Position numbers and translations under genes: made by a program. A DNA stretch of 64,000 nt from the NCBI GenBank assembly GCA_963931865.1, contig OZ007511.1, positions 14,328,774-14,392,773 of the forward strand. Direction: 5' to 3'. Below are positions 9,171 to 51,179 of the stretch, piece after piece (the first letter of the stretch is position 1; every line of letters starts with the position of its first letter). Under the pieces are notes generated by a model. That model made no database searches. It was not told where the DNA came from and saw only the letters and a list, made by a program, of their open reading frames with translations. The DNA comes from Axinella damicornis. Its lineage: Eukaryota; Porifera; Demospongiae; Axinellida; Axinellidae.

Positions 9171-12100
9171 ATGGTGGCCTACAATCGTTGCCTTCAGATC
9201 AGCTTCATCTTGGTGCAGCTGTGTTTTATTGTGAGCGCGCTAAGCACATTTTGCATGCATGCATATATCGCATGCGACCGTCGACATGTTTGTTGTCGTG
9301 CGCGTGGCACGGCAGGCTTTGTTTTGCGTGTATGACTGGGTGTGTTGCAGATAGGCCCAAGGATTATGATATCCTAAGTTAGTAGACCAAGGGGCAGGTG
9401 TCTGCTGTGTCTAGACAAGACTTGGGAATGACTGCCTGCCTTCCTATATATACAAGCCATTACAATTTGATTATGTATATTACAAGTGATGGTATTAATT
9501 GCATTCCTACTGTCAAATCAATAATGTGATGGTGTAACCAGATGCTGTTATGTGAACTCACTTCAAGGATTCTGGGTGCCATGAAGTTCCACCTCCACCT
9601 GAAGCTATGCATTACATTTCCCCATCAACAGAAGTGCTCAATAGTTTGGTGCAGGAAGTGTGACAGTTGAGAATGTCAATATTGAACATGCTTAATAGTG
9701 AACATGAGGGCCACTTGAGTTCATAGACAGTAACTGTCAGCTTGACGAGTGAAGAATGCAATAACGGATGCTGCATGTCCGCAAAGACCAAAGTAGAATA
9801 TTCACTTGTGTTAGTCTGCATTTCCTCCCTCCCTCCCTCCCTCGCAGGTTCTAGGATTGGCGCTAGTTGGTTTAGGGGTGTGGCTGGAGTTGACGGAACA
9901 GAGTATCCAGGCCATAGTAAACCAGCAACAGTTACTGTATGGCCCATACCTCATCATCGCTGCGGGGTGTGCCGTCGTGCTCATCGCCGCCATCGGCATG
10001 GTGGGTGCGTGCTGTGACCACAAGATCAACCGATTTCTCCTCATCTTTGTAAGTAATCTTGTACCAAGTTGGTAACCTGGGAGCCATGTACTGGTTTATG
10101 ATTCAACCGTACAAGCAAAAACTGCAAGCCAATAAATTGCTATAGCATGACAGCCAGTGCTGTAAGGCTTATGCGATAACAAACCGAGGCTGTGTAAGCC
10201 CAAGAGCGCATGATGACATCATTGTTTTTTCACGCCGTGAAAAAACAATGATGTCATCATGCGCTCTTGGTAAGTCATATGCCACGCAACTGCCATGCTG
10301 TTGGTATTGTATGTTGTAACGGACCTGGCAGTACAGTACAACTTGCACCAGAGTGAGGTCTGAAGGACCACACACAAAACATGTACATGCAGCTCAAACA
10401 TGGCACAGAAAACTGCAGTACACAATGATCTGTATGAATGTCTTCTGTGTCAATATGGAACATGATTCTGACAGTGAACAGGGGGCCACTGGAGCTGAGC
10501 TGGTGTCTACCACAATCAGTAATTGTCATCTGGTGAAAGAATGCCAGTATCAGGTGCTGCATGTCTGCAAAGAGTAGAGTCACTTGTGGCCTTCACATTT
10601 TACCATCAACATTTTCGCTATTCCTACCTCTCATCTCCCACCCTCCATTCCAAGCCTTCAGTACATTATAGGGTTGCATTCTTTGCTGGACGATTAAACA
10701 GGAACTTCCTTGAGAAGTGAATTATGTCCATGTAAATGTCCCAGAAATGCAATGCAATTTGCAAGAAGACCTACAAGTTCACCAGGTGAAAGTTGCATCA
10801 ACAGCTGCTAGAAGTAAGGCTAACTTTGTAAGTTGACACAATCCGAGGTGCCAATGCGCAGGTGGGGCATGTGTGTAGACAGGACTATAGGCATGTAGAG
10901 GCTGTTGTGTGCTGAGTAGCGCTACTGTCGCTTCATAACGCTCGCCCTCGTGGCCTAGCCTCGGTCCCAGGCAGAGAGCCTGGGGCCGAGGCTACTCGTG
11001 GCCCTCGCATCTCACACTCCCTCATATGTCACACTGCATGCTCTCACAACACCACCTAATACTCACATATCTACCCAATCACCTGACACACCCTCACCCC
11101 CCTCATATCTCACACACCTCAGTACATCATCCTCGTCCTCCTGGTGTTCGCCGCTCAGCTGGCTGGAGGAATCCTGGGATTTGTCTACCGCAGTCTGGTA
11201 TGCCACCACACTGTTGTGTTTCAGGTGCTAAAGCACCTTCCTGCTAGCTTGCTTTTGTTTACCATGAGGGTTCACCATGATGGTGGCAGAGCGTAGTCCC
11301 TCTCTCCTCACACACACCTCACTCAACCTCCTCCTCCCTCCCCCTCCCACTCCCCCTCCTAGGTCACGGATCTGGTGACAGACGGTCTGCGAGTGACCAT
11401 CAACCAGTATGATTCCCGCGAAAATGCTACAGACTCTGACAATTTGGTTACGCTAGCGTGGGACACCGTGCAGGCCCAAGTGAGTCCCCTGCTGAATTGA
11501 ACCGCACTATCATAGGCAGGCAGAGAATACTAGCACACTGGCTGGCATCACTCACTGGGATATGCGTTATTGTTGTCTGTACATACATGCTGAATGAGTG
11601 TATGTCCTAGTTGAAACAGTAGTCTATGAACTAACTGCCTGAGCTTGTGGACCGAAGGAGAGTGCGCACAGATAGGGAGCTCTTGTTGGGTGCCACAATT
11701 TCATTTCTGCTGTTGTATAGTCGAACAAAGTCCACGACAAGAACTCAGCACTGGGGATGTTATACACTTCCCGATGTTGTACCACAGTGACCGTGAAGAA
11801 ACCTGGAATCCTAGAGGCTCAGTGGTGCTTCCTTGCTAGTGCTGGAATTTGAGCTGAGCCAGAGTAGAGAACCACATGCATCAAAGATAAAGTGGGCTCC
11901 ACTGTATACACTCTTCCTCACGTGCTAGCTGTCCCAACCAGTGCAGCCACAACGATGTAGTCCTATCATAGTATGGTACATGTAGCTGCAAGAACATTGA
12001 GAATGGCTGCACAGTTGTTGTTATACAGTCCTACCATGCACTCTGACCCCCCCTCCTACCATGCACTCTGACCCCCCCCCCCCCCCCCCCCCCCCCCCCA

Positions 12101-13706
12101 GCTCTCCTGCTGTGGTGTGGCTGGTGTGGATGACTGGTTGTCTAACAACACGGCCACCTTACCCCCGGGCCTGTTGTTCCCCGTGTCCTGCTGCCCGGGC
12201 TCTAACTGCACATCTGTCAATGCAACCATGATCGCGGTCAGTCTGCATGACCAATTGCATCCTCACTTGTGTGGTTTGATCATGTTCGGATTTCTCAGCT
12301 GACGTCACATGACAGTATGAGTAATGCATTACATAGCGTCATTCCCAGACCGTGCGGCCAGCTAACGAGGCTGTGCATTGCAGACAAGGGTGTGCAGTTT
12401 AGGGTGGTGTTGAAGTAGGAACAATGGAACGACACACAGGAGAACCCACCGACTAGTAGCTAGTACCACATCATTTGCATGACAAGTTTCACCTGAGGGT
12501 GACACTGAGATGTCTAACATGGAGCTTCTGAACCCAGGATGTCAGCAGTACACACATGCATCCGGCTCTTGTGTGGGAGGATCGAGTGGCGCTCCACTCC
12601 CCCTGGAACAAGTCTAACACAGATCTTGCTACACCTTGCGTGGTCATATCCCAGACCAAGCCTGCAGCCCGGCTCACCTGTACCGTCAGACTCAGAGCAG
12701 AAACCACACACAATAGTGAAACATTTCCATTCATCACTTTGAATTCTATACCATAGATAATAAATGTAGTTTATTATCTATGGTTCGAGGTTCAGTAAAT
12801 AAATTCATAGATAATAAACTTCGTAGTTTATTATCTATGATAAATTAAAGTACGAAGGTTGCGCGTCACTATAGTCTAGTCCCGCCCCACGAACATCCCA
12901 CTTCCGTCACTCACACACAGACACGTAAAATGTATTGATGTGTATTGCACTCCCTTCCCCCCTCACACACATCCACACTCCCCTCCCCCTCACAGGGCTG
13001 TTTGGACGCCGTCACTAACGTTGTTCAAGACAACCTGCTCATTGTGGCCAGTGTAGCCATTGCACTGCTTGTCGGAGAGGTGAGCCAGTCAGCCCGTGTT
13101 CATCCTGCCTTGTGTTGGCTCCAGAGTCCACCTGTGTTTGTGCATGTGGCCCCTTAGGAGATGGAGCTAATGAAACATGCAGAACTGTCTCTAGTATCTA
13201 GTTCAGTTTGTGCCATTCAGGTGGCACCTGCTCCCCCGGTAGGGTAGCCAGTGGACTGCTCCCCCGGTAGGGTAGCCAGTGGACTGCTCCCCCGGTAGGG
13301 TAGCCAGTGGACTGCAGTATGACGCCTCACGCCTAGCCTTGCTCCTAGGCCTGAACGAGGCTACCTCACGCCTCACTCCTTAACACACGGCATCACATAC
13401 TGCCAACGACGGTCAAAACGAGCAATGGAAGACAACGCTTCTAGCTTCACACACCAAGGTTAGCTTCAGCGAAAGTATTACACAAATGCATTGGTGCTTG
13501 ACGGTGACCACAACAGCATCTTGTGCTCTTTTCTAACATAGTTGGTCTAACTCGATGCTTGCAGAGAACAATAGTGGAGCTTGTTTACACTCCTCTGCCC
13601 AGGGCTCCCAGCGTCGATCACACATGCTCCCCTCTCTCCCTCGCAGGTGATTGTGGTGCTCATGGCTTTCTGTCTTGTCTGCTGCACAGACTTTGATGAC
13701 AAGTAG
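9171..13706 (+). CDS. Tetraspanin (cluster member B)
   Basis: Seven phase-0 exons: 9171-9230, 9848-10048, 11123-11197, 11363-11479, 12102-12236, 12996-13079, 13647-13706, giving 243 residues. TM1 begins MVAYNRCLQISFILVQLCFI. TM2 ends MVGACCDHK. TM3 is YIILVLLVFAAQLAGGILGF. The large loop has LSCCGVAGVDDW, then PVSCCPGSNC and the pre-TM4 GC (GCLDAV), with several N-glycosylation sequons (NNT, NAT, NCT). The tail ends CCTDFDDK. This is the most canonical member of the cluster. Its exon borders coincide with those of C and D, showing common ancestry by local duplication. Introns hold several small hairpin elements. Confidence 0.9.
10199..10270. mobile_element. 72-bp near-perfect palindrome
   Basis: CCAAGAGCGCATGATGACAT and its reverse complement meet at a CACGCCGTG centre, forming two arms of about 35 bp inside tetraspanin B intron 2. 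It is probably a hairpin MITE of a family different from the TAGCCTCG elements. No clear target duplication was found. Confidence 0.6.
10956..10994. mobile_element. 39-bp TAGCCTCG-family foldback MITE with 9-bp TSD
   Basis: The ends TAGCCTCGGTCCCAGGC and GCCTGGGGCCGAGGCTA are inverted repeats with almost no interior. CTCGTGGCC flanks it on both sides (10947-10955 and 10995-11003), an exact 9-bp duplication. Confidence 0.85.
12752..12839. repeat. Pair of AT-rich palindromes
   Basis: CATAGATAATAAA...TTTATTATCTATG occurs twice in succession (12752-12783 and 12806-12839), each a perfect small hairpin, in intron 5 of tetraspanin B. Possibly a nested or duplicated MITE. Confidence 0.65.
13228..13314. 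repeat. 28-bp tandem repeat, 3 copies
   Basis: CTGCTCCCCCGGTAGGGTAG-type units start at 13228, 13256 and 13284. Located in the last intron of tetraspanin B. Confidence 0.9.
13334..13363. mobile_element. 30-bp TAGCCT-family MITE with 9-bp TSD
   Basis: TAGCCTTGCTC at the left is the imperfect inverse of GAACGAGGCTA at the right. CCTCACGCC flanks both ends (13325-13333, 13364-13372). This is the shortest member of the family in the window, hardly more than two joined ends. Confidence 0.75.
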
Positions 13707-14104
13707 TCGATCAGTCAATCTTTCCCCCGTCACATTCCACTCTAGTCTGTACATAACCACGCCCTCTGCACACCACCCACTAGTACACAATACTCAGCTC
13801 GTATGTATAGATGCATCATCTTATGTATAGCACCTAGCAGCCTCTATATAGCATGACAGTACTTATACACAATCTAACACTGTATTTTTATGAATGATGC
13901 CAAAAGTATTATTACAAAATTACAAAAATATTATAGGGCAATTAATGGTGTGAATGAGGGTCCCCTCTACTCAGCGCTAGCTGATCAGAACGAGGCTACA
14001 AAAATACCATATGATTGTACTAACAGTCTAGTCTGAATTGGTTGGTGATTCTGTGCAAGCGTGGGGAATGTTACTACACACAAGCAGTGTGGTGCATCTC
14101 CTCC
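13707..14104. other. Convergent intergenic region between tetraspanins B and C
   Basis: A 398-bp AT-rich spacer between two stop codons. It probably holds both 3' UTRs and polyadenylation sites. No gene is seen. Confidence 0.5.
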
Positions 14105-19061
<4,957 letters not shown>

Positions 19062-19395
19062 CTTGCGCAAGTTTCGTACAGTGCGCACATGGTGGGTAGC
19101 TACGCCCACATAATCTATAATTAACCACCTCTTTAGTTAGCTAATTACAGCCACTCTACCTTCGCGCATGCGTACTCATAGTAATTACTTACTAGCAGTG
19201 AGCTCATAGTTCCAGTTCACATCACGCGGTAAACATTACTTCCCAATATGCATATGTACAGAGATAGGTCAGCAGGTAAGCATGCAGTCTAATAAGAGGC
19301 TATAGCAGTTACAATAAAATGGTGGATAAAAGTCTGTTCATTCTACTGGACTCTCAACACATTTTATACTATACAAGGGTCGGAGCGTGCTGACA

Positions 19396-20800
19396 TCAGA
19401 CAACAGTCTGCTCCCGGCTCTTCGTGATAACGCAGATGAGGCCAAGTGAGATCAACACACCAATGATCTGTGGGGGAATGCATACCATGGACAGGGTACA
19501 TGTGTGAGTGTACATGTAAGTTGAGAGATCAAGGCAGATATCTTGAACAGTTCTGTAGCATTTTCTACTATATTTTCCAGCCACCCAGAACACCAAGCAA
19601 GGGGTTAAGGCAAAAGATGAACTGGATGACTCTGGAGAAAAGAAGGGAAATGAGTCGGCTGACACTAGTTCGGAGGTGTGTGCTGAACATTGCTCCGCAG
19701 TGCTTGAGTGGAAGACTGAAGACCATAGCCTCGTACCCAGGCCTTCAATCGCGGGGGGAAGGCCTGGTATACACTGTTTGCGCATGTGTTTAATTTAAAT
19801 GTGAATATTACGTCATTTTTAATTGTGACGTTTGCGAATGGGTTGGGCTTAATCGATGACGTTTGCGTAAACACACCCGCGTACGCGTGCCTGAGAGCGA
19901 TCAAAGGGCTCACAACAAGCACACCACAGCTCTTTCCACTGTCTACAAGTCCCTTCTTGTAGCTAGACTCCATGAGGAAAGGGAGCGCTTGGTAGCACAG
20001 GCTCTTGCCATAGCCAGTAGGTAGCTAGCCACACTAGTGACGAACACGTCGCTGCCTTCGTACACAGCTCTCATGGAGGAGCGCTGCTCTTCTTTCACAG
20101 TCATCCGTGTCATTTCAGCCTTCGCAAAGCATAGGTAAGAGCCTCAGAGAAACTACTACCACCGGAACTTTTGCACGCCATATTCATATTGCTACTCGTC
20201 GTTCGTTGCGGTTCTTCTAGGAATGTAAACGTGGACGTCATTCGACGTCATCGTTTCACGGAAGAATACCGAGATATCCTATTTTCCAAGATTTTGGGGG
20301 AAATTAAGCGCATGCGCAAACAGTGTATACCAGGCCTTCCCCCCCGCGATTGAAGGCCTGGGTACGAGGCTATGAAGACCAGTGCTGAGAATGGGAGACG
20401 GGTCATGATAACTGTAAACTTTATGTACCCCAAGTTAAGACGGAGTGTGGGCATAAGTCTTTCACATTCAAGGGGATACAGGAGTGGAACAGCCTTCCAC
20501 CCGAGATTAGGACCCTGAGATTGTCTACCGCACTCAGAACAAAACTTTGGATTTACATGTTTAATAGATAAATAATGATAAATTGAGGTTTTGTAATCTT
20601 TGTAGGCAATTTGTGGTGTACTGTATGCGTTTTGAGTTTTGATTTCATTTTTGTAGATGAATGTGTACTTAATTGTGTGTATGTGCAGGACTGTATGTGT
20701 TTTGATTTTGTAATTTTTGTAGCCGAATGTGCAGTTATTGTATGTGCAGGACTCCCTGGAGGACCAGCTAGGTGGCTGAAGGGACATTTCCTGTCTAAAA

Positions 20801-20842
<42 letters not shown>

Positions 20843-22192
20843 CTGCTGAAATGAAACCATACCTCGATAATACCAAAAGCAATTCCAATGCCTCCAGCCG
20901 TATAGCCAGCAATCACCAGAGTATTTCTAGTGCCTTCCACACAGCCCTGGGAGGGAGGGAGTGGACCAGTGGTTGCCACAGACATTTGTGAAACTCAATC
21001 AAGTGACGTACATACCGTGCTAAGGGCTTGAAAGGTTATGTTGAGGACCGGCATTGTACTGTTCCGCAAAAACGTGTACGAGGAGCAGGTCGTCGGGTCG
21101 GTGGTTGAATTGCAAGCCATGCAAGATGGGGCACGGTTGTTGCTGGCCTCTACAGCAGGCAAGTTCAACTCTATCCAGCTCTGGGGACCAGTACTGCCAC
21201 AGCAGGCAAACTGCAGTAGATAGATTGATTGATGTGAATTTCAACAGGATTGCCCCATCAGCCTGTGGCTGATAGAGTCCTGTAGGGTTAGGTACAGAAT
21301 GACACCACCACTTACGGTTGTCTGCACAACGGAAACAGCATCGCTGAGACCCTGATCAAATCCTGGGTTGTCTGGGTCGGCCACAAAGTTGGTGATGGTG
21401 GAATTAAACCGCTGTTCAATCCCACGCACCTTGGAGAGTATGAGGGGAGAGTGGGAAAAAAACTTCCATCCAAACTCATTCGTCAAACATCATTCTGCAT
21501 TTCATCACTACTTGTACCACGGGATAGGATGCCTATGAAAGTGTCCCGCCTAGAAATTGCTACAAAAAGGACAATGCTTTGTACCTACGTTTGAATGCAC
21601 AAACACAGGGTATACATGTAGCTGTCCATATGCCTGCTACTGCATGCCCATGACATCGATCCTTACCACTTCATCTCGGTAGACGAACCCCAGGACACCG
21701 GCGACGATCTCCAGGACGACGATGATGACTAGAACAATCATATACTGGTGGGGGGAGGGGGAGTGGAAATTAGGCAAGGCCAGCTACGCACAAGCTACGG
21801 TTCCAAGGCTTACAATGAACAGGAGGGGTCTCCACAGCCCGATGCCACCCACGATACCCAGTGCAGTGATCACTACGGTAACCACACCGCAAATGATGAG
21901 CAGCGCCGTTCCACCCGTGTAGCTAGTGCCGCCGGTGAGAAAGGATAGATTGGTCCCCACAACCGCGAGGTAGATCCCCACGGCCAGGAGCGCCAGACCG
22001 ATGAGCTGGGAGCGGTGAAGATTATATTTGCAAACACAATGCTTGCTGATACGAAACGGCTCTTGAGAGAATATATCTAGGCAGCTACTGACCTAGCTAG
22101 GCTAGGCGCCTAGGCTAACTCACCATGAAAATAATGTTGATAAGGATGAGCAAGATCCTGAAGCACTGCGCGCACTTGCTGATTTCTCCCAT
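19396..22192 (-). CDS. Tetraspanin (cluster member D)
   Basis: Seven phase-0 exons, right to left: 22192-22124, 22005-21814, 21744-21667, 21429-21316, 21210-21016, 20946-20863, 19467-19396, giving 267 residues. It starts MGEISKCAQCFRILLILINI. TM3 is YMIVLVIIVVLEIVAGVLGF, close to that of C. The large loop has FACCGSTGPQSW, then PSCMACNSTT, TTCSS and a GC (GCVEGT) before TM4. The short tail is TKSREQTVV. D and C share orientation, exon plan and TM3 sequence, so they are probably the youngest duplicates. The last intron contains the 647-bp MITE and a LINE fragment. Confidence 0.9.
19726..20372. mobile_element. 647-bp MITE with TAGCCTCG ends and 9-bp TSD
   Basis: The terminal inverted repeats extend about 62 bp. 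The left begins TAGCCTCGTACCCAGGCCTT and the right is its near-perfect complement ending CGAGGCTA. The target duplication TGAAGACCA lies at 19717-19725 and 20373-20381. The interior has no transposase frame. It is the longest member of the family here and the likely source of the shorter hairpins' end sequence. Confidence 0.9.
20382..20580 (+). pseudogene. 3' fragment of a non-LTR retrotransposon
   Basis: Translation of about 20450-20575 gives FTFKGIQEWNSLPPEIRTLR followed by a short Leu/Lys end and stop. This resembles the C-terminal end of LINE reverse transcriptases (phrases of the type 'W NSLP ... FK..L'). It is 5' truncated and broken, followed by AT-rich sequence and a (TATC)n tail at 20801-20841. 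The neighbouring MITE target duplication abuts it. Confidence 0.55.
20801..20841. repeat. (TATC)n microsatellite
   Basis: About ten TATC units. Tetranucleotide tails of this kind often terminate LINE copies, which fits the fragment just upstream. Confidence 0.9.
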
Positions 22193-22472
22193 CTTCGCCG
22201 ATACTTCCAAGAGCGTCAGATTGTTGTAACGCAAGAGTGAAACTTCGCCACCAAACAGATCGTTCTGGAGCAGCCACACCTAAACGACTATTTAAATTAT
22301 TGGGAATTTAGAATGCCATTTTGGGACTCTGGCATGCAGCAAAAATTTGACACCATAGCGCAAAATTCGATCGGTTAAACCACAAAAATGGAATGAACGG
22401 CGCATTACACACATTCTGACACTCACACCTCCCCCACCCCCATGACCCCACACACAGTGACACACAAAGTGA

Positions 22473-25400
22473 CTAGCTGTTCTGTGTTTCTACTATGTCT
22501 TGCTTGCTAGCAGCCAGAGCAGGTGCATCACTCTCTGTTGGTTCAGGACTAGTAGCACCAGGACTACTAGTAGCACTGCGAGTGCCTGTAGTGCTCGGGG
22601 CAAATGGAAAGTTGGAGTAGAGGACACTGTCCCCAGGGCTCTGTGACAAGTGAGTATCCTCACACCCTGAGGCTTCCAGCCCCTCGCCAGACTGGAAGGT
22701 TTCAAAGTAGTCGTTGTCTAGTATCGGTGGTATGTCATTCTCGGAGTCTGACGATGCTGTATTCCAAGTGTCCATTTCTCCCTCAACTCTCACATTCGGC
22801 AGTTTCTCCAGCTTTCTCTCAAGTGACCATCCACACTGTTCCTCCTGTATCGGAGTGAGGGGTCCTCTGCCCCCCTCCTCCCCTTCCTCCTGCCGACCAC
22901 CATCCTCTGAATTACGTATCGTAAGAGCAGTGAGTGCTTGAATGACCTCATCTGGCTGTATCCCCAGCTTCAGCCACCCGGAGATGCCTTCCTGTGGGGT
23001 ACATGCTGGAACAGAGCACACATTAGAGCTCTCCCCACTGTCCTCCCCTCCCCCGTCCTGGGGAGGAATCAGCGCTGACAATGCACCAATGAGGTCCATT
23101 GCGGAGATGGCCTGATGTACCCTCTCCGGATGGCTGGGTTCTAGTGGGGTAGACGGTGGGGGGGATACAAGGGGTGTGGTCCCAGTACTGTGCCCACTTT
23201 GGATCCATGCTGTTAGTGCGGAGGTTACTGCCTCGGGAAAGATTGGGGTGGGCGTGTCATCCCGGGGGGTGAGGGAGAGGGGAGTGTCCTTGTTCTGTAT
23301 GTGGAAGAGGGCATCCAGGGCAGACTGGATCATCACCGGAGTTATGGTGGGTTTGTTGTTGCCGTTAGCTGTGAGAGGGGTGGAGGGTGGGGGGGAGAGG
23401 GAGTGTGAGGAGGGAGGGTCACTCCCAGGAGGAACCAAGAGAACGTCTGGAGAGACACTGCTGATGTCTGACTGTCCGTCTGGTTCTTCTCTGGAGGGAA
23501 GACCTCCCTCCTGTGAGGAATGCCAGCTGCCAACCGAGTACCTCTCCTTGTCCTGCATAGTGACAAACCCTCCTTCCCTGGCACTGCCGCCAGCCTGTGA
23601 GCCCATGAGCTTGTGTGTCAACAGCGGGTGCTCTAAAGAATCCAGAGGAGACTTGTCATGATCAAACGATCTGTCGACCTGAGGAGACACCCTGTAACCC
23701 TGCAACCCGAGACTGCGCCTGAAGCTTGAGTCAGCTCGGACTGGGGACACGAGACTGCCATTACGGCTGTGCACCTGCCACGACAGCTGCAGCTGTTCAT
23801 CACGACCCTGCAAGGGTTCGCTGTCAGTAGTTATACCGGCACCCTCACTGCTGCTTGTAAATAAGGACTTTGTTATTGGCCAGCCATCTGGATCATTGCC
23901 ATAACGCTCCACCAGGGACTGAATCTTTGCCTGGAGGTAAGGAAGGAAGGAGGCGAGCAGTGAATCCAGTTCTTTCCCAAGAGGATGAGTGCTATGCATA
24001 CAGACACAAGTGCTATGCATACAGACACTAATGAAGAAGCCCAATACTGAACCAAAAGGGGATTTATTTACATTGCACTACACAGGTAGGTGAGTTCAGT
24101 TCAGGAGTGGTGCATCTGACTGCAGAAGAGGGCTTCACACAGCCCCCGCCCCCCCCCCCCCCCCCCCCCCACCTGGATGCTGATGCAGCCATCACCTCAT
24201 GATGTATTTATTGAGGTACACCCTTCAACAGGAAAACAAGTCAGTGCGGTATCCAAACCCAGGACAGAGCCTGAGCTACGCACTAGAGACTCTCACTCAA
24301 CCAGTCCATCCCGCTGAGTCATGCTCACCTGCTCTTTAGTGGAAGCTTGTTGGCCATCCAGGGCCACCTGCAGTGGGGCAACACGACACGTTAGAGCTAT
24401 GACATGAAACCTCTGCTCATATTGGTGGGAGCATGTTACGGATGTAGAGTGGGCGCAGTCTAGCTATGTGTACGTGTGGTGGATCAGTGGCGGTGCATCC
24501 TCACTCTCGCTGAGCCTGACAGTGATCCAGCTGATTCTCTGACTTCCATCAACACTAGTACCAGCGATAACTACATGCACTGAAAAATGGACTGGGTCAT
24601 CCGACAAAGAAATGTGGGATAAGAAAATGAGCTCATAATGCAGACTCAGCACCTTTAACTGAGGCCGTAACAGAGCAAGGCACTTCTGATGGGGAAGGCG
24701 CGCTCATCATCACCAGTACTCCAGACCTTGAGCACCAACTCATGAGGTAGACCCTCCTACTGCCAGCATGTTATTAACTTGCTAGCAGTATAAGTGCCCA
24801 CCAGTTCCCGTGATGCTGTACTACGACCTAATACACAAGCTAGCAGCTCTCACCATCCTCGACTTGTGCATGAACTTGGCCAGGAGCACCAGTCTGCAGG
24901 TGTGTGTGGCCGAGATGGGGTTGCCTGGACAACGGGGAGAAGGGGGAAGTGCTCGTGTTTTGAGTCATAATACCTCAATACCACGCACTGTGCACGTACA
25001 AGTCTGCTTCAATGGTAGGGACAAATGTACCAATACGTCCATCTACTCAATACCCGGCTCAGTTACATACGTACATCTACTCAATACCCGGCTCAGTTAC
25101 ATACTGATATCATTTCCAGCACAGTATCATGATTATTGAGTGCGCGTCCATTTTGTGTAAGTAGTTCCAATTACACTGGCTTATCTGACTACATAACTAT
25201 GGTAGGAAGTAATTACTACAATGTGTAGTAGTAACACGTGTCACTTGTGCCCCCCCCCAACAAAGCCTGCTTTCACCCACTACTAATACAAGGTCACAGT
25301 AATCAATATGCAAAGTTGCCAAATAGCAGTATTGCCTCAGCGATCACAGAGTAATCAAATTGATCCTACTGCTCTATGTTTAGAAGTTCTATTCTAGACC

Positions 25401-31400: not shown

Positions 31401-31626
31401 CAAATGTAGCACGGTATCTAAGGTTTACTCAAAGCACATCATAGTTTGTAGCATGCTCATGCCTCCTACCACGTGCGGAGAGGGCTTTTTCTCTGATCTC
31501 AGCGTCCCTTATGACGACATGTCTTACGCGATTCCGTCCCTGTGCGTTCCCCCGCTCAGATGAAGAGCGGTCTCGCCGCCACACGGCGCTTCCAGGGGAA
31601 GGCAGGTAGCCGCCAAGAGATGCCAT
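22473..31626 (-). CDS. NISCH: Nischarin-like protein: PX domain plus leucine-rich repeats
   Basis: Exons traced right to left: 31626-31470 (tentative), 31251-31163, 30304-30178, 29996-29939, 29861-29715, 28686-28538, 28481-28267, 27800-27698, 26587-26471, 25604-25430, 24924-24854, 24367-24329, 23930-22473. The PX domain shows YRRYSQFHALHRK and then ELLPPKKLAGNLSKQLIDKR and LLERYLQKL. Helical linker and LRRs follow (TLTLSHNHLTHLDD, LNLSHNLLQSL, FLDLSHNCLSTL, SLNLSYNLV) with an LRR cap GNPIS. This order is that of Nischarin, an endosomal PI3P-binding scaffold that interacts with integrin alpha5 and Rac/PAK signalling. The last exon codes about 485 low-complexity Ser/Pro/Glu-rich residues and stops, so the long conserved C-terminal half of the human protein is absent. 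The exon 1-2 and 5-6 phases do not match; a small exon may be missing from my model. Confidence 0.78.
24148..24322. repeat. Poly-C tract and possible tRNA-derived SINE
   Basis: A C run at about 24148-24170 precedes a segment whose reverse complement has TGGACTGGTTGAGTGAGAG and GGGTTTGGATACC, similar to the A and B boxes of a tRNA-type polymerase III promoter. Intronic in the Nischarin gene. The SINE call is weak. Confidence 0.35.
25977..26465 (-). pseudogene. 5'-truncated, frameshifted LINE fragment
   Basis: On the minus strand the peptide SVQKFAAKVCTKRWHEPYTS, then KLTVVYKCLNGLMAMPPNTF, then a frameshift into SLWNHWPV...FKSCIKNF corresponds region by region to the better LINE copy at 49.4-50.2 kb (SVQKFACKVCLQQW, KLTTMYKIIGN, VITLWNALPNSVKH, VFKRLL). 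A short A-rich end (T-rich on +) at 25977 marks the 3' terminus. It sits in a Nischarin intron on the sense strand. Confidence 0.75.
26600..27190. repeat. Long polypurine tract (GGGGAGAGGAGGA)n
   Basis: Nearly 600 bp of almost pure purine on the + strand, in a Nischarin intron. It is therefore polypyrimidine in the transcript and gives meaningless open frames on both strands. Confidence 0.9.
27440..27660. repeat. Pyrimidine-rich minisatellite
   Basis: CTCCCTATCACCTGCCTTCC followed by TCTCC(C/T)TCTC repeats about seven times with a unit of roughly 33 bp. Confidence 0.85.
27978..28255. repeat. (CCCT)n polypyrimidine tract
   Basis: CCCT/CCTC repeats, densest at 28150-28240, in a Nischarin intron beside the LRR exon at 28267. 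Confidence 0.9.
28695..29110. repeat. 26-27-bp G-rich minisatellite
   Basis: GGAGGGGAGTGGGAGGGTGT plus ACGTGA repeats about 15 times in a Nischarin intron, giving a long false Pro/Ser/Thr/His frame on the minus strand. Confidence 0.9.
29215..29670. repeat. 21-bp minisatellite
   Basis: GTGTGTGAGGATCGAGGGGC(A) units repeat about 20 times, with an inserted 9-bp GATGTGTGA variant at regular intervals (higher-order pattern). Confidence 0.9.
30497..30935. mobile_element. Old, degenerate inverted-repeat element
   Basis: CAGCCTCGTTCCCAGACCTA near 30497 and GGGTAGGCCCTGGAATGAG near 30912 are imperfect inverses. Internally, GGCCTGGCATTGTTTATCAT (30583) is mirrored by GTGATAAACAATACCAGGCC (30820). It looks like an eroded long member of the TAGCCTCG family inside the first introns of Nischarin. 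Confidence 0.5.
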
Positions 31627-31704
31627 AATAAGCAATGTCCTGTTTCCATACCGAGGAACGGGGACCGGGAATGGGGTCGAGCGTTGAATTGCAGAGAGAT
31701 AGAA
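31627..31704. promoter_or_regulatory. 78-bp bidirectional promoter gap, NISCH / CYB5R
   Basis: Only 78 bp separate the proposed start codons of two divergent genes, so 5' UTRs and core promoters must overlap or lie within the first exons. No TATA box is seen. This depends on both start calls being right. Confidence 0.5.
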
Positions 31705-34305
31705 ATGGAGGCAAGTGATTGATTACTTCAATTCAGTTGGGAGACCCAATCTGGGCCGGAAAGGTTGCCATGAGACCCATAGTCTGAAGTGGCAGACTTC
31801 CTCCAGTCAAAGTCTTGCAAATGATGTCAGATTGCTCTGTCATGTCTGGTAAAAGGGTTGGGATTTCCTGATCTCGTTGCCAGACAACGAGCACTGAAGC
31901 TAGTCTGGTGGCACGTGCTCAGATGAGCTGCTCTCCAACAGTTGCCGCACAAACTTTACTCCACAGCTAACAGAGAACATGCCTGTTCAGTGTGTGCAGC
32001 ATGTCAGAGCTTGCATGACACTCCCTGAGTACTATAGGCAGGTCCTCTCCTCGTGTAGACGTAAGGTTGTGCAAGGTCATTGTGATTGCAGTGTTCTGAG
32101 CGAACTTCTGTTTAAGTAGTTACGTATCTGTGGTGTGCATCGAGGAAACTACGCCGCAACATGCCAAAGTGATTTGTCAATGTATATTTCGAGTGTCTCT
32201 TCAAGTCTGACTTCACTCATCCCCCTTGCAGGGTTATACTATAGCAGTTGTGGTTGCAGTGGGTGTGGCTCTGGTTCTTGGTTACCTAGCAACCAGTGGG
32301 CGTGGCAGGGGTGGCCCCCCCAAACCTCGCAAGAGAAAGGGGCCAGTGGCCCTGGACCCGGACAAAAAGATTCCGTTCAAGCTGGTGAAGAAGGAAGAAG
32401 TCAGCCATGACACGAGGAGGTTCACCTTTGCCCTGCAGACGCCTCAGCATGTTCTGGGACTCCCAGTCGGTGAGTGTATTGTAATCCACTGGCCGGTGAT
32501 TGAGAAGCTCAAGTGATCTCTTCTGTGTTCCCTAGGCAACCACATGTACTTGAGTGCTACAGTCGATGGCAAACCGGTGTCACGCCCGTACACCCCTGTC
32601 ACTTCGGATGATGAGCTTGGCTTCTTTCAGCTTGTGATAAAGGTGACCAATTGCAGGAGAGGACAGTCCCCAAGCACTGCATTTCTGCCTCCCCTTCCTC
32701 TTCCTCCCCCCCCACCCCTCCTAAAATTCCTTCCACCTCTCGTGTGTCTTAACCCTCCCCTCCTCCTCTCCTCCTCTCCCTCATCCTCCCCTCTTCCTCC
32801 TCACCCCTCCTCCTCCTCCTCTCTCCCCTCCCTCCTCCTCCTCCCTCCCCTCCTCCTCCTCTCCCCCCCCCCCCCCCCCCCCCCCCTCCCCCCTCTCCCT
32901 CCTCCCCACTCTAGGTATACTTTGCCAACGTTCACCCCAAGTTCCCTGAGGGTGGTAAGATGTCCCAGTATCTGAACTCGCTGAGTATTGGAGACACGAT
33001 AGACATTCGGGGACCAGCGGGGAAGGTTGTGTATCTTGGACGAGGGTACTTCCGTGTGAAGGAACCTACCAAACCTGAGGAGATACGATTTGCTACCAAA
33101 GTGGGCTTGATTGCAGGAGGCACAGGTGAGGCAGCCTTGGCCCCGGGCCACCACCCAGCTTCCATAGCTTCAAGTTTTGCATGCGTGGGGACTCTGAGTA
33201 CCGTTGCTTATAATTAAGTCTGTCTGAAGGATGATGTATCCTGGTGACTGGTGTCTGAAGGATGATGTATCCTGGTGACATTGTTCAGTTACTGGTATAA
33301 CTGCAAGTGTTGCAGCAGTTGTGAGTGACAGACCAGTGCAGCTGGTGGGTCGTAGCCTCGTTCCCAGTCCCACGCCCAGCTTTTCGTCGCTGCTTAGTAC
33401 GGTAATACCGTACTAAGCAGCGACGAAAAGCTGGGCGTGGGACTGGGTACGAGGCTAGGTGGGTCGTACTCTCGCCTCATAAAGACTTCCGCTGACTCTG
33501 ATTGCACCTACCAGCTTGTACCCACTGTTGGCCAACCGTTCTGATGGTCCTATAGTGCTGTCACCGCTGTGCTCCTACCTGTACCTCCTAGAGTTGTCAC
33601 CACCCTGTCCTGTCCGCCCTCAGGCATCACACCCATGCTGCAGATCATCCAGGCAGTGCTCAAGGACTCCGGTGATACCACCACTGTCTCCCTGCTCTTC
33701 GCCAACCAGGTAAGCTTCCTCCCCCCCCCCCCTCTCCCTCTCCTTGTGGCTGGTGTGTTGGGTATCATACTTATATTCTCTATGTTTAGACAGAGGAGGA
33801 CATTCTGGTACGGGAAGAACTGGAGGAGATGGCATCGAAGAGTGACAGGTTCTCTCTGTGGTACACTGTGGACCGGCCCACTGAGGGTGTGTGTGATTTC
33901 CCACTCGTGCTCTATGGGATTAGTGGCAACTGGCAACTGGGCTAGTGCCTGTCACACAATGTGCTCAGTACACACATCTTCTCCCCCCCCCCCCCCCCCC
34001 CCCCCCAATTATCTCCTCTCCCTCCACTCCTTTCCTTCTTCCGCCCCTCTTCCTCCGCCCCTCCCTCTTCCTCCGCCCCTCGATCCTCCTCTCCCTCCCC
34101 CCCAATCCTCCCCTCAACCACAACCTAACTAGGTTGGAAGTACAGCTCTGGGTTTGTGAGTGCGGACATGATCTCAGAGCACCTGCCTCCGCCATCGGCC
34201 AGCACCCAGATCCTGATGTGCGGCCCACCCCCCATGATTAAGTATGCGTGTCTCCCCAACCTGGAGAAGCTAGGGTATTCCAAGGATATGTATGTACCAT
34301 TCTAG
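31705..34305 (+). CDS. CYB5R: NADH-cytochrome b5 reductase
   Basis: Exons 31705-31710, 32232-32469, 32536-32642, 32915-33125, 33624-33709, 33790-33886, 34133-34305 give 305 residues (human CYB5R1/3: 305/301). The first exon encodes only Met-Glu and ends at a GC donor (GAG|GCAAGT). A TM anchor follows ([19 protein letters not shown]). The FAD-binding [13 protein letters not shown] (RxYT[ST] type), [12 protein letters not shown]-binding GGTGITPM and CGPPPMI motifs are present. The enzyme transfers electrons from NADH through FAD to cytochrome b5 for lipid desaturation and related reactions, anchored to ER or outer mitochondrial membrane. It ends MYVPF, where human family members end CFVF or similar. 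The last three exons are repeated at 35.9-36.6 kb. Confidence 0.95.
32685..32912. repeat. Polypyrimidine tract ending in poly-C
   Basis: (CCT)n with a C run at about 32867-32886, forming an exaggerated pyrimidine tract before the acceptor at 32914 of CYB5R exon 4. Confidence 0.9.
33353..33457. mobile_element. 105-bp perfect-hairpin MITE with 9-bp TSD
   Basis: Arms of about 50 bp, TAGCCTCGTTCCCAGTCCCA at the left and its complement ending CGAGGCTA at the right, meet at a CGGTAATACCG centre. The TSD GGTGGGTCG occupies 33344-33352 and 33458-33466. The second copy of this intron (about 35702) has a single GGTGCGTCA with no insert: an empty site. Confidence 0.93.
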
Positions 34306-35157
34306 CTGGTACACAGAATATACCGTATTTACTCTTCTAGCCGGTTCACAGAATTTACTGTATTTAGTCTTCTAGCTGGTACAAAGAATATACTCTTCTA
34401 GCTGAGACAAAGAATGTATTATGACACTAGACACTGTGGTACTACCTGTACAGCACCTTTGCTATGATCCAGAATGAAAATTAACAGACCAACAGACCAT
34501 GTATTCTGCCACCAGTCAAACAATTAGTTGCTGGACGACCACTGGCGTTGATATCCCTAACCTCACGTGAAATCAGAACCCATGCAGCTGCCCATCCGTT
34601 GAAGGTTCTTTTCATGCTGATCACTTCACCACAATGCCAAGCTTCATATGTCATTCATATGCATGGATACAACATTGTTAGACAATGGTATGGTGTAGCC
34701 ATTGGCCCAATTATGCTAGCTATCTCGGATAGTACTCAGCTGAAACATTTGGCCTAATTTGCACCATTGATGGAACATGCCAATGATGTCCATTTGCGTT
34801 CCTAAACCCGATTTCTGTAGAAAGGCATCACGTTGGGTGTCTGTCACCATGCTTTAGTAACGTGCAGTTGAAAGGAGGTTATGTAGCAGCAGTCATCCCA
34901 TCCACCAAAGGTACCACCCTGAAACTTGCCAAATTAATCAATGTGCACAAAATTCTCAACACAATCACAATCCAGGCCGGTAATAGATGGTAGGATTCAA
35001 TAGCTTACTTGATGGGAAATCACAGTGAACAAACGACACCACTTCAATCGAGCCTAGGAGCAATATGATGTATTTAATGAGGCACGTGTTGAGGTAAGAG
35101 TGTATACGGTTAGGTGAATGAGCAGTGTAGTCTGATCACCACAGCTACATGAATGAG
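34306..35157. other. CYB5R 3' flank, no gene
   Basis: Contains short repeats of CTTCTAGCTGGTACA-type sequence just after the stop. A tRNA-like patch (reverse complement of about 34560-34640, with GGTTCTGATTTC) could be a decayed SINE. No coding potential seen. Confidence 0.4.
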
Positions 35158-35315
35158 TCACGTCTGTGCCTTGTGCGTGAGTGTGTGTGTGAGGCGGAGT
35201 ACTGTGGTGTGTGGAAGGGATCCACCCACTGGTCGTAGTTGGGAGGGGTGGGGTAGTCGTGGAGCTGGGTGAGTTGGGCAGAGGTGAGCATCTGCGCAGG
35301 ATAGGACACCATACC

Positions 35316-35515
35316 NNNNNNNNNNNNNNNNNNNNNNNNNNNNNNNNNNNNNNNNNNNNNNNNNNNNNNNNNNNNNNNNNNNNNNNNNNNNNNNNNNNNN
35401 NNNNNNNNNNNNNNNNNNNNNNNNNNNNNNNNNNNNNNNNNNNNNNNNNNNNNNNNNNNNNNNNNNNNNNNNNNNNNNNNNNNNNNNNNNNNNNNNNNNN
35501 NNNNNNNNNNNNNNN
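35316..35515. other. Assembly gap (200 N)
   Basis: Exactly 200 undetermined bases. The left flank corresponds to 37716 and the right flank to 33128, so the gap joins two copies of the same segment. Confidence 0.99.
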
Positions 35516-35872
35516 GAGGCAGCCTTGGCCCTGGGCCACCACCCAGCTTCCATAGCTTCAAGTTTTGCATGCGTGGGGACTCTGAGTACTGTTGCTTATA
35601 ATTAAGTCTGTCTGAAGGATGATGTATCCTGGTGACATTGTTCAGTTACTGGTATAACTGCAAGTGTTGCAGCAGTTGTGAGTGACAGACCAGTGCAGCT
35701 GGTGCGTCATACTCTCGCCTCATAAAGACTTCCGCTGACTCTGATTGCACCTGCCAGCTTGTCCCCACTGTTGGCCAACCGTTCTGATGGTCCAAAGTGC
35801 TGTCACCACTGTGCTCCTACCCGTACCTCCTAGTGCTGTCACCGCTGTATACCCTGTCCTGTCTGCCCTCAG

Positions 35873-36216
35873 GCATCACACCCATGCTGCAGATCATCCA
35901 GGCAGTGCTCAAGGACTCCGGTGATACCACCACTGTCTCCCTGCTCTTCGCCAACCAGGTAAGCTCCCTCCCCCCTCCTCTCCCTCTCCTTGTGGCTGGT
36001 GTGTTGGGTATCATACTTATATTCTCTATGTTTAGACAGAGGAGGACATTCTGGTACGGGAAGAACTGGAGGAGATGGCAGCGAAGAGTGACAGGTTCTC
36101 TCTGTGGTACACTGTGGACCGGCCCACTGAGGGTGTGTGTGATCTTGTGCTCTATGGGATTAGTGGCAACTGGGCTAATGCCTGTCACACAATGTGCTCA
36201 GTACACACATCTCTTC

Positions 36217-36261
<45 letters not shown>

Positions 36262-36635
36262 TATCTCCTCTCCCTCCACTCCTCGCCCTCCACTCCTTTC
36301 CCTCTGCCCCTCTCCCTCTTCCTCCACCCCTCCCTCTTCCTCCGCCCCTCGATCCTCCTCTCCCTCCCCCCCCTCCCCTCCTTTCCCTCTGCCCCTCGAT
36401 CCTCCCCCCCCCCCCCCCCCCCCCACCCCCCTCAATCCTCCCTTCAACCACAATCTAACTAGGTTGGAAGTACAGCTCTGGGTTTGTGAGTGCGGACATG
36501 ATCTCAGAGCACCTGCCTCCACCGTCGGCCAGCACCCAGATCCTGATGTGCGGCCCACCCCCCATGATTAAGTATGCGTGTCTCCCCAACCTGGAGAAGC
36601 TAGGGTATTCCAAGGATATGTATGTACCATTCTAG
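35873..36635 (+). pseudogene. Duplicate last three exons of CYB5R (no N-terminal exons)
   Basis: Three exons of 86, 97 and 173 nt, identical in length and phase to those of CYB5R. They encode [29 protein letters not shown] and the CGPPPMI motif. Nothing upstream could supply the FAD domain, so alone it is not a gene. It is either an allelic copy from assembly or a real partial duplication. Confidence 0.8.
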
Positions 36636-37047
36636 CTGGTACACAGAATATACCGTATTTACTCTTCTAGCCGGTTCACAGAATTTACTGTATTTAGTCT
36701 TCTAGCTGGTACAAAGAATATACTCTTCTAGCTGAGACAAAAAGAATGTATTATGACACTAGACACTGTGGTACTACCTGTACAGCACCTTTGCTATGAT
36801 CTAGAATGAAAACAGACCATGTATTCTGCCACCAGTCAAACAAGCAGTTGCTGGATGACCACTGGCGTTGATATCCATAACCTCACGTAAAATCAGAACC
36901 CATGCGGCTGCCCATCGTTGAAGGTTCTTTTCATGCTGATCACTTCGCCACAATGCCAAACTTCATTATATCATTCATATGCATGGATACAACATTGTTA
37001 GACAATGGTATGGTGTAGCCATTGGCCCAACTATGCTATAGCTATCT

Positions 37048-37315
37048 TGGGCTAGGAATGAGATATGAAGCTGGGATTTGCACCATTGCGATCAGCATGA
37101 AAAGAATCTTCAACTGATGACCTAAGAATGACTTTTAATATTGGTCACATTTATGCCAAAATTTGCACTCGGCCAAAGGCTATAATCCATGGATTTTGGG
37201 TCAAAATTCAACCAACAGCAAAAAGGACATTCACTGGAATGCTCCATTCATGCTGATCACAATGGTGCAAATCCCAGCTTCACATCTCATTCCTAGCCCA
37301 AGATACCTAGGATAG
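37048..37315. mobile_element. Foldback element of about 265 bp, present in one copy only
   Basis: TCTTGGGCTAGGAATGAGAT at the left and ATCTCATTCCTAGCCCAAGA at the right are inverted. The arms extend to GATCAGCATGAA / TTCATGCTGATC. The corresponding site in the first copy (about 34722) lacks it. A clean target duplication could not be assigned. Confidence 0.7.
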
Positions 37316-37545
37316 TACTCAGCCTGAAACTTTATTAATGTGCACAAAATTCTTAACACAATCACAATCCAGGCCTGTATAATGGATGGTAGGATTCAAT
37401 AGCTTACTTGATGGGAAATCACAGTGAACGAACGACACTGCACTTCAAATGGAGCCAAGGAGCGATATGATGTATTTAATGAGGCACGTGTTGAGGTAGA
37501 GCGTATACAGTTAGGTGAATGAGCAGTGTAGTCTGATCACCACAG

Positions 37546-48479
<10,934 letters not shown>

Positions 48480-49220
48480 CAGACAGCTGCAATAATATTA
48501 TGTCATAAGTTAGGGCCAGCTATACCAGGTATATGTAAAGTGTAGAATGGTCCCACCCGTACCCCGCGGTCCGATGGAGCATCGATATTGATACGCATCA
48601 CCATAAAGGAATATAATGCCACACAATTAGCTATCTGCTCATTGATACTGTATTGTAGTCAAGGGGTATACACATCTGCCTGCTACTCAACAATAAATGC
48701 CTTGCATCCAGGATCTGGCGACCCGCTGTCCTCCTGTTTAGTAGCAATACACTCTTCAGTGACTATGATCTGTACAGACATAGCTGGCGGGGAACTGGCA
48801 TGGATAAACCTGCCGCTATATTTCTGCATGCACACATTTGAAGTAAATATAACCATGCATATGCAGCAACACACCGGTAGCCAATAATGCGCGCCGTCCA
48901 AGACTGAGAGAGCGATTCCAACTGTCAAATCAGCGCAGTAGTACAACAGGTTCGAGCTCCGTACAAATTGCGCCATGGCAACTGAAGTAACCTCCAAGAT
49001 AAACACAAGGTTTGCGGCCAGCGGAATGGTAAACACACTGCAGTGCGCCTTCTAGCCACACCCCGCCCCCTTCAACGTCTGGTCCGCGAGAGATCGTCGC
49101 TAGTCTAGCGGCTAGCTAGCCCCTCGAATTTTCGCCATGGCCTGGTCCTAAGTTGCCCTCAGCAGACACTCACCCAGCCTACATGTACAAGCCTTGTAAT
49201 TGTCTTCCGTCCTACTGCAT
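48480..49220. other. Upstream region of the mucin-like gene, no clear gene
   Basis: A minus-strand open stretch near 48683-48976 begins MAQFVRSSNLLYYCADL but has no recognisable family. It could be an upstream or alternative first exon. CpG-rich sequence at 48880-49100 may be a promoter. Confidence 0.35.
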
Positions 49221-49229
49221 GTGCAGGCC

Positions 49230-49293
49230 TAGTCTGGCGCAGCCAGACCCTCGCACGGGACCCTTCCCGTGCGCGTCTGGCTGCGCCAGACTA
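49230..49293. mobile_element. 64-bp hairpin MITE (TAGTCTGG ends) with 9-bp TSD
   Basis: TAGTCTGGCGCAGCCAGAC pairs with GTCTGGCTGCGCCAGACTA, with an inner ACGGGACCCTTCCCGT hairpin. GTGCAGGCC is duplicated at 49221-49229 and 49294-49302. The end sequence differs from the TAGCCTCG family, but TAG...CTA termini and 9-bp duplication are the same. Confidence 0.88.
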
Positions 49294-49302
49294 GTGCAGG
49301 CC

Positions 49303-50366
49303 AGGCACACCACTCTCAGGTGGTACAGTGTATATATCACTCCTGCAGTTTCAACTGTGGGAAACATGCTGCCTTCCACAACCCAATCAACTCGTCCCAT
49401 TTTACGTCAGATTTATTGAGGGCATTTGCCAGGGATGCAGGAGTATTCTCAAATGACATCCTGCTTTACAAGCCCATCTACTGTCCTGAAGACTATCGAT
49501 ACCTACAACAAGACATTGATGCTATCAATGGATGTACACGAGCTTGTCATCTCAAACTGAATCCATCCAAATGCAAATACATTATTGCTTCAAAGAAGAG
49601 ACACCCCCTTTATCCATCTAGTGGATTGTTCCTGGGTAGCTGTATCATGGAGCAGGTGGACAGCTATCGATACTTAGGAGTTACAGTGACTTCTACACTC
49701 AACTGGAACGACCACATTCAACATATCTGTAGTAAAGCCAGGAAACTCATTGGTATGTTACATAGACGGTTTTCCAGCTGGGCTGACACTAATACTTTGA
49801 GATGTCTCTATCTGACCTGCATAAGGCCTCATTTAGAATATGCATCTCAACTATGGGACCCATACACAAACAAAGGCATCCAGTCTCTGGAATCAGTGCA
49901 AAAATTTGCATGTAAGGTCTGTCTGCAACAATGGAACCTTGACTATGACAGTATGCTACAACTTTTGAACTTTCCACCACTTTCCACTCGCCGCAACTTT
50001 CTGAAACTTACCACTATGTACAAAATTATCGGCAACTTCTCCTACTTTCCTCCAGGAGTATTTGTACAACATAACTTCCCATATAGCACCAACCAACACA
50101 CTAACTTTAGTAGGCCATTTGCTCGCACACAGTACATGTTTTCATCATTTGTACCTAGTGTCATTACTCTGTGGAATGCTTTACCTAATTCTGTTAAGCA
50201 CGCATCATCTATCTCTGTGTTTAAAAGATTGTTACATTCTATGTAGGTAGGTATATAATGTTTGTTTTCACCTTAAGGCTCATGTATCACATTAGCATTC
50301 CTGCTATTCATGTTGCCTTGTGTTTATAACACGAATTTCATAGAAAAAAAAAAAAAAAAAAAAAAT
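49303..50366 (+). pseudogene. 5'-truncated LINE reverse transcriptase with poly-A tail
   Basis: An open frame to 50246 covers the C-terminal third of a non-LTR reverse transcriptase: palm region FSNDILLYKPI, then LKLNPSKCKYIIASKKR (thumb), YRYLGVTVTSTLNWNDHI, ARKLIGMLHRRF, YLTCIRPHLEYASQLWDP, SVQKFACKVC and a VITLWNALPNSVKH end. After about 100 nt of 3' UTR comes an A22 tail (50345-50366). The catalytic box that should read [F/Y]xDD is FSND, so a catalytic Asp is lost. The endonuclease and most of the polymerase are absent. The CR1/Jockey-like clade is an inference. A relative lies at 25977-26465. Confidence 0.88.
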
Positions 50367-50522
50367 GTGCAGCTGGATCAGTTCCAGCACCCCCTTTGAC
50401 TTGTGCGCAGCACGTGCTGAGCACCACTCAATTTGAGGTGCCACAGATCGAACTCCTAGAAAAGAACAACCTGTAGCTGCTAATTTTGTACCCTCCAGGC
50501 ATCGTTGTTCCACCTTATGTAT

Positions 50523-50587
50523 TAGCCTCGTACCCAGGCCCTCACGCGGAACTCCGCGTTCCGCGTGAGGGCCTGGGTACGAGGCTA
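50523..50587. mobile_element. 65-bp TAGCCTCG hairpin MITE with 9-bp TSD
   Basis: TAGCCTCGTACCCAGGCCCT and its complement join at a short GGAACTCCGCGTTCC centre, an almost perfect palindrome. CTTATGTAT is duplicated exactly (50514-50522, 50588-50596). Confidence 0.93.
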
Positions 50588-51179
50588 CTTATGTATTACC
50601 ATTGTTGGGCCCAGTTCACAAATTGCATCTTGTTTTGAACTGTTTTTACCTGATCATGATCATGTTTCAAAAATTGTTGGTGATTTGCTTGGCTGTTTTC
50701 ATCTGCAGTCTAGAGTCCAGAGTCCAGTCCCGAGAGCCCAGGTTTTGCACTGACCCACCACTTGCTCTGTGGTGGGACAGCAAGGGCCACTCTCCTCTCG
50801 TGGCAGTGCTACCAACCAGTGATGCTCGGCTAGGGCTTTTGCTCAAAGGTTCAAAGGTTGATCGATAATGCCTACAGCGAGCATGAGACACAGAGGGGAG
50901 ACCCCTGCAAAGATTGGCAGGGAGGAGTATCGCCTGAAGCAGGAGTCACAGGGAGGGGGGACCAATGACACGACCATTGAGTGCCTCAAGTACCTAACAG
51001 GTTAAGTGATCAATGTCAAATGACTATGGCATGATCAGACACTGCTTTCTGTTGCTATGGCAACAACACTTCCTAATCCATTGGTCACTGGGTGTTCAGC
51101 AAGTGTTCCACAAAGTTACCACTAGCTGGTGCAGAAGTGTTGTTTCAATGGCAACAAAAATGGTAGTGGCTCAAAGACC

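Follow-up and report, generated by a model that had tools for sequence, protein, structure and literature searches.

Very small hairpin elements with 9-bp target duplications: candidate foldback-type miniature inverted-repeat transposable elements

Results

Hairpin elements in the window

The stretch of DNA analysed here (the window) comprises 64 kb, C7:14328774-14392773, of a genome of 226,483,885 bases in 120 contigs. It contains a set of short elements with inverted ends of the type TAGCCTCG, most of which can fold back into hairpins and are bordered by 9-bp direct repeats. The end sequence TAGCCTCG is present in 12 copies in the window, against 0.68 expected, and the highest count reached in shuffles was 5.

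Exact 9-bp target-site duplications (TSDs) directly abut the inverted ends of five elements already listed in the sequence-only reading, an earlier inspection of the same letters. The 39-bp element at 10956..10994 is a hairpin composed of two joined ends (DNA fold z-score -8.0), with the TSD CTCGTGGCC at 10947-10955 and 10995-11003. The 105-bp element at 33353..33457 (TSD GGTGGGTCG, fold z -21) and the 65-bp element at 50523..50587 (TSD CTTATGTAT, fold z -13.5) are hairpins over their full length. The 30-bp element at 13334..13363, with CCTCACGCC on both sides, has decayed ends and forms no significant hairpin (fold z -0.39 relative to shuffles). The longest of the five, the 647-bp element at 19726..20372 (TSD TGAAGACCA), exhibits ends of approximately 72 bp, with an inner stem CCAGGCCTTC/GAAGGCCTGG followed by TATACACTGTTTGCGCATG.

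The 8/9 match that the same reading had reported around position 39071 is likewise found: the 47-bp hairpin at 39071..39117 (fold z -6.4) lies between ATCTGCATG and ATCTGCACG, and its left end reads TTGCCTCC. One element had been overlooked, a 64-bp hairpin at 49230..49293 recovered by a scan blind to the end sequence. It has the exact 9-bp duplication GTGCAGGCC on both sides, its end reads TAGTCTGGCGCAGCC, and it belongs to a sister subfamily, TAGTCTGGCGCAGCCAGACC. The earlier description of the short copies as perfect palindromes is accurate for most of them, but not for the 30-bp copy at 13334, nor for a 67-bp copy located elsewhere in the genome (L027:3042-3108).

Target duplications beyond the window

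The flanks of the inverted ends were compared in a sample of 264 kb of the 226 Mb, consisting of the window and of 20 stretches of 10 kb chosen by place (two per contig, C1-C10). This sample contains 40 nearest pairs of TAGYCT ends spanning 26-700 bp. An exact 9-bp repeat borders 15 of them, ten of which are outside the window, including two in one tandem array at locus L012. Exact repeats of 8, 10 and 11 bp were each observed once, and repeats of 5-7, 12 and 13 bp were never observed. When one mismatch is tolerated, 19 of the 40 pairs match at 8 or 9 of the 9 positions. As a control, flanks taken from different elements were compared with one another; of 1560 such combinations, six gave a match of this quality, and each of these six stems from the L012 array.

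The same length stands out among the 190 pairs of convergent ends that span up to 3 kb: the longest exact abutting repeat is 9 bp in 14 pairs (three of these from the L012 array), and 5, 8, 10 or 11 bp in one pair each. The sequence-blind scan, which covered 2240 short inverted pairs of any sequence in the sample, yielded flanks matching at 8-9 of 9 positions for 16 of 67 pairs starting with TAG (three of the 16 being the L012 array), versus 6 of 2173 other pairs (Fisher p 4e-21). A transposon family with 9-bp duplications that includes hairpin-only members, as proposed in the sequence-only reading, is thus supported by the flanks, in which 9-bp repeats are in excess and no other length dominates. 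Scaling from 17 loci per 264 kb, the genome would hold about 15,000 such loci.

End sequences, copy number and subfamilies

With at most one mismatch, TAGCCTCGKWCCCAG gives 33508 + 37737 matches in the whole genome (about 71,000), whereas the reversed pattern gives 13 + 24. Elements with a 9-bp duplication have TAGYCT in common and diverge after it. Several subfamilies exhibit different stems, with ends such as TAGCCTCGTWCCCAGGCC, TAGCCTCGTTCCCAGTCC, TAGTCTCGTTCCCAGACC and TAGTCTCGCRGGCCAGCC (L020:30-79, L024:2622-2671, L024:2835-2890, L011:4423-8676) or the end TAGTCTGGCGCAGCCAGACC of the window element at 49230.

In many ends, bases 3-6 can pair with bases 14-17, forming an inner dyad GYCT/AGRC. 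Among 20367 genome matches to TAGYCTCGTWCCCAGRCC, the dyad position is C..G in 16647 and T..A in 2629, giving 19276 paired ends, and is an unpaired combination in 1091 (5.4%). As the ends are related copies, these counts show an association and not thousands of independent events. The dyad is absent from one subset of ends (TAGCC...AGTCC).

Ends are also found in head-to-tail arrays with periods of 21 bp, 22/45 bp, 27 bp and 26 bp (L003:2199-2490, L023:8430-8849, C1:862744-862912 and window 5926-5981), which indicates that they also become minisatellites. The array in the window, on the forward strand at 5926..5981, comprises 2.2 copies of a 26-bp repeat that includes the end-like GTCTCGTTCCCAGACCC.

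Pairing and length distribution

Twenty-nine pairs from the window, from all other sampled loci of the genome and from two sponge-sample contigs were listed, and those up to 1 kb were folded. Nineteen of them are at most 147 bp long; in 18 of these TSD-bearing elements, 71% or more of the length is paired, the sole exception being the 67-bp copy L027:3042-3108, with 38% paired. In the five listed pairs that measure 387-647 bp, the paired fraction is 3-54%; one of these five (L012:7536-8018), as well as two pairs above 1 kb, is a spurious pairing within the L012 array. The lengths are bimodal. Among the pairs of the 264-kb sample with flanks matching at 8-9 of 9 positions, considered up to 700 bp, 16 of 19 measure 39-106 bp and three measure 396-647 bp. 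Similarly, among the first 100 listed exact TAGTCT ends on C1, ten of 15 close convergent pairs measure 38-115 bp and five measure 390-635 bp. Few lengths are observed between about 116 and 390 bp, although this gap is not absolute, as a pair of 296 bp is present on C10 and a copy at locus L048 measures 147 bp.

The extensive pairing of the short copies, their separation in length from the longer ones and the predominance of paired dyads could reflect a transposition route that depends on a hairpin or cruciform. The palindrome would fold so that its ends become neighbours, with cleavage by the transposase at the base of the stem, hence the shortest mobile copies would be full hairpins. Nevertheless, the joining of two long inverted ends yields a palindrome for free, the 296-bp convergent pair exists, sample sizes are low, the counted dyads are not independent events and the TAGCC...AGTCC ends lack the dyad. 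The arms themselves also speak against this proposal: in 13 pairs that passed the comparison (27 of 101 elements used), 21 differences are mirrored, 60 are confined to one arm and 26 are of another type, which makes no strong case for arm-to-arm correction. On balance, we consider such a route unlikely.

A more demanding version, in which the cruciform or hairpin is the only form that allows the shortest substrates (about 35-110 bp) to move and the palindrome replaces DNA looping for end pairing, appears quite unlikely. The persistence length of DNA is about 150 bp, and a segment of 40-60 bp is stiff. If this version were true, the stem sequence would be free to vary provided that pairing is kept, and lengths too long for a hairpin but too short to loop would be depleted.

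Recurrence of the short hairpins and longer members

Hairpin copies of about 50-105 bp that match end to end are dispersed in the genome. The 65-bp hairpin at 50523 matches end to end at 33 of 40 scored places, its own included (57-69 bp, 87-100% identity; 596 candidates). For the 64-bp hairpin at 49230, this is the case at 12 of 40 scored places, again including its own (51-64 bp; 46 candidates), the other 11 copies being 77-86% identical. The remaining 28 places have exactly its first 31 bases in common and nothing further, and two of these 31-base matches form the 296-bp convergent pair on C10. The 64-bp hairpin thus has the appearance of a single element end fused to its own mirror image. 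The 105-bp hairpin at 33353 has a 92-bp twin at L042:93-184 with a different TSD, GTAATAGGT.

Such recurrence bears on the possibility that the short copies never moved as short elements, and that they are instead longer elements reduced in place, once inserted, through internal deletions from one inverted end to the other, the 9-bp duplication being kept. The 67-bp copy L027:3042-3108 resembles a hairpin minus one arm, and the two 30-bp copies, at 13334 in the window and at L006:1501, are mere end stubs, as this would predict. In contrast, hairpins of the same sequence and of nearly the same length recur at many places, and the 92-bp and 105-bp twins are at different TSDs; individual 65-bp and 64-bp copies, the flanks of which were not seen, may nonetheless have been copied within larger repeats. 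Shrinkage as the general origin of the short copies is, in our view, distinctly unlikely.

Longer members are present as well, and elements can be nested. At locus L011, a 4254-bp element (L011:4423-8676, TSD AAGCTGGGC) lies inside a hairpin element with the TSD GGAATAGCC. The 647-bp element of the window (19726..20372) aligns with the first 127 and the last 504 bases of a 1975-bp element at locus L025, the inverted ends of which measure 72 bp; judged by this alignment, it is a shortened form of the latter. The L025 element also contains, at about positions 123-751, a repeat of approximately 628 bp dispersed in the genome, the scored copies of which are 95-99% identical (40 scored of 1301 candidates). 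This repeat is probably a recently active, unrelated mobile element.

Relatives and look-alikes in other sequence collections

A scan of prokaryote genomes with TAGCCTCGTWCCCAGGC returned 49 stretches, against about 60 expected by chance (uniform-base estimate), so we treat as meaningful only two loci, L048 and L059, and a group of cyanobacterial repeats. The contigs of L048 and L059 are recorded under the name of a Cycloclasticus symbiont from a poecilosclerid sponge. L048 carries a 147-bp hairpin with the exact 9-bp duplication GTATGCACC. The end at L059 is 81% identical to that of the L025 element over 73 aligned positions, and its inner stem is changed on both sides (CCAGGCTCTC/GAGAGCCTGG in L059 versus CCAGGCCTTC/GAAGGCCTGG in L025). 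Both contigs are presumably sponge host DNA, and the genome to which the window belongs is probably that of a demosponge. A search of viral contigs gave one contig, in which the surroundings of the match are not palindromic; it was taken as chance.

Cyanobacteria (Microseira wollei, Hormoscilla and others; L053, L055, L061, L079, L084 and others) possess palindromic repeats built on the same core, CTCGTTCCCAGGC...GCCTGGGAACG, a likeness that is likely due to convergence. Movement of REP-like palindromes by a single-strand Y1 transposase of the RAYT type, as in bacteria, would fit small high-copy palindromes and the core CTCGTTCCCAGGC common to the cyanobacterial ones, but it is most improbable in view of the constant 9-bp duplication on both sides, since Y1 enzymes and REP palindromes are not known to leave such a target duplication.

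Discussion

Proposed mode of transposition

We interpret the elements, with a probability of roughly 0.7, as very small non-autonomous foldback-type miniature inverted-repeat transposable elements (MITEs), moved by a 9-bp-staggering DDE transposase encoded elsewhere. Their inverted ends are bordered by a target duplication of constant size (exactly 9 bp in 15 of 40 nearest pairs), and they are short, non-coding and of high copy number (19 listed copies of 30-147 bp and about 71,000 ends). Duplications fixed at 9 bp, together with inverted ends, imply a DDE enzyme that makes a 9-bp staggered cut. The transposase would recognise a short terminus, made of TAGYCT and, in most ends, of the inner dyad GYCT...AGRC. 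The element would be excised and reinserted with a 9-bp staggered cut, which would leave the 9-bp duplication. The hairpin members may have arisen when the ends of a longer element were joined, or through snap-back copying of a single end. We infer that the short copies moved as short DNA.

Several observations weigh against this interpretation. In 21 of the 40 nearest pairs, the flanks match at fewer than 8 of 9 positions, so many pairs are old, chimeric or due to chance. The copies of the 65-bp hairpin were compared as elements alone, their flanks not being seen. The full-length element with the same ends and a transposase that the sequence-only reading called for was looked for, but no TAGYCT-ended element with a transposase was found. 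Eight of the longer open reading frames (ORFs) of the 1975-bp and 4254-bp members gave no Pfam match above the cut-off, and the single match below its cut-off (E 0.083) was taken as chance. Six families of Mutator-like elements (MULEs) inspected in 6-kb stretches do not exhibit TAGYCT ends as their own (the far flank of one of them, L043, is outside its stretch). Finally, the ends are short (72 bp in L025), whereas MULE ends are typically longer than 100 bp.

Superfamily of the transposase

As regards the superfamily, we lean towards a Mutator-like enzyme. This is a best guess, based on the 8-10 bp duplications typical of the group, on the terminal palindromic motif of Muta1 and on the 9-bp Mutator/foldback MITEs of nematodes. 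According to the accessible text of PMC5225508, duplications of 8-10 bp are typical of MULE and foldback elements, and the 9 bp observed here are within this range; the inverted ends of MULEs typically exceed 100 bp, although two of 14 Aedes families have ends below 60 bp. The hairpins described here consist of ends only.

The genome contains 51 scored matches to the MULE transposase domain PF10551. One of the corresponding elements, L045:807-5397, is a Mutator-like element of 4591 bp with an ORF of 890 amino acids (aa), perfect 24-bp ends GGGCGTATGGAAAAGCAGGAAACG and the 9-bp duplication CATTTCATC. The preference for Mutator over hAT expressed in the sequence-only reading is made plausible by the length of the duplication, the foldback form, the MULE-domain matches and this MULE family with a 9-bp duplication, but not by any TAGYCT element with a transposase. 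The hAT superfamily duplicates 8 bp. The measured length disfavours it (exactly 8 bp in one of 40 pairs versus 9 bp in 15), despite 150 scored hAT matches among 241 candidates. Merlin elements, which in the accessible part of PMC8101967 have ends starting with GG, duplications of 8-9 bp and an IS1595-type transposase, were rejected, as the ends described here start with TAG and PF12762 has no match in the genome.

One of the six inspected MULE families, at locus L042 (family B), with a 967-aa ORF between TAGCCTCG ends (3941 bp), was considered as the autonomous partner and rejected. Judged by the boundaries of its siblings, the family stops at L042:5014, within a hairpin copy that is broken, and thus seems only to have landed there, which suggests that this Mutator-like family can land in these hairpins. 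The region L059:7050-7291, about 214 bases inside the element end, contains a zf-AD-like N-terminal piece interrupted by one frameshift, for which the Pfam E-value of 0.0008 does not reach the curated cut-off; a coding element may begin here. The piece has a single match in the genome, C7:7152232-7152360. None of the MULE or listed hAT matches is nearer than 400 kb to this place, and the protein collection searched contained no homologue of the piece.

Comparison with known systems

Among described systems, Muta1 and its non-autonomous derivatives, Mutator-like foldback elements of Aedes aegypti, are similar in their 8-9 bp duplication, in the imperfect palindromic motif at their very end and in having relatives with a variable interior. 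However, Muta1 has ends of 145 bp with subterminal tandem repeats and a known active transposase, whereas hairpins of about 35-110 bp dominate here and no transposase is linked to them (PMC5225508, accessible text). The Tm1 Mutator/foldback elements of root-knot nematodes share the 9-bp duplications, and MITE-like inverted-repeat members are their largest class; yet they measure 0.17-2.5 kb and number 39 and 22 in two genomes, whereas the present family has ends in the tens of thousands and members as short as about 35 bp (PMC3169594, in its available portion). The hairpin introners of Amoebophrya are also repeated, hairpin-forming and bordered by direct repeats, but these repeats are of 3-5 nt at exon/intron borders and the ends are variable, in contrast to the 9 bp and the constant TAGYCT seen here (excerpts of PMC7789003). 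The M1/M2 palindromic repeats of pithoviruses are MITE-like, about 140 nt long and without known transposase, but they have dinucleotide duplications and reside in a viral genome (available part of PMC10664404).

In the literature searched, with Repbase and most subscription papers outside it, we found no description of hairpin MITEs below 100 bp with 9-bp duplications in such numbers. The family is likewise not described in the accessible parts of PMC12221973 (Mutator ends at placozoan loop anchors), PMC13155455 (inverted repeats across genomes) and PMC12909245 (Dysidea genome).

The family raises the question of the smallest amount of DNA with which a mobile element can still move. Should hairpins of 35-65 bp prove to be real substrates, the lower size limit for cut-and-paste transposition would be pushed down, and one may ask how the transposase pairs ends that are closer than DNA normally bends. 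For one animal-like genome, a load of tens of thousands of such ends should have consequences for genome stability and also for gene annotation, because the end translates to a protein-like SLVPRP in mechanical ORFs.

Other features of the window

Two solitary ends are present in the window. The first, TAGCCTCGGTCCCAG, is on the forward strand at 6158..6172, and no partner with a 9-bp duplication was found for it; the second, at 13984..13998, is decayed and in reverse orientation. Next to a run of 200 N at 35316-35515 are near-duplicate blocks (about 33.6-34.4 and 35.8-36.7 kb) with similar ORFs and repeats.

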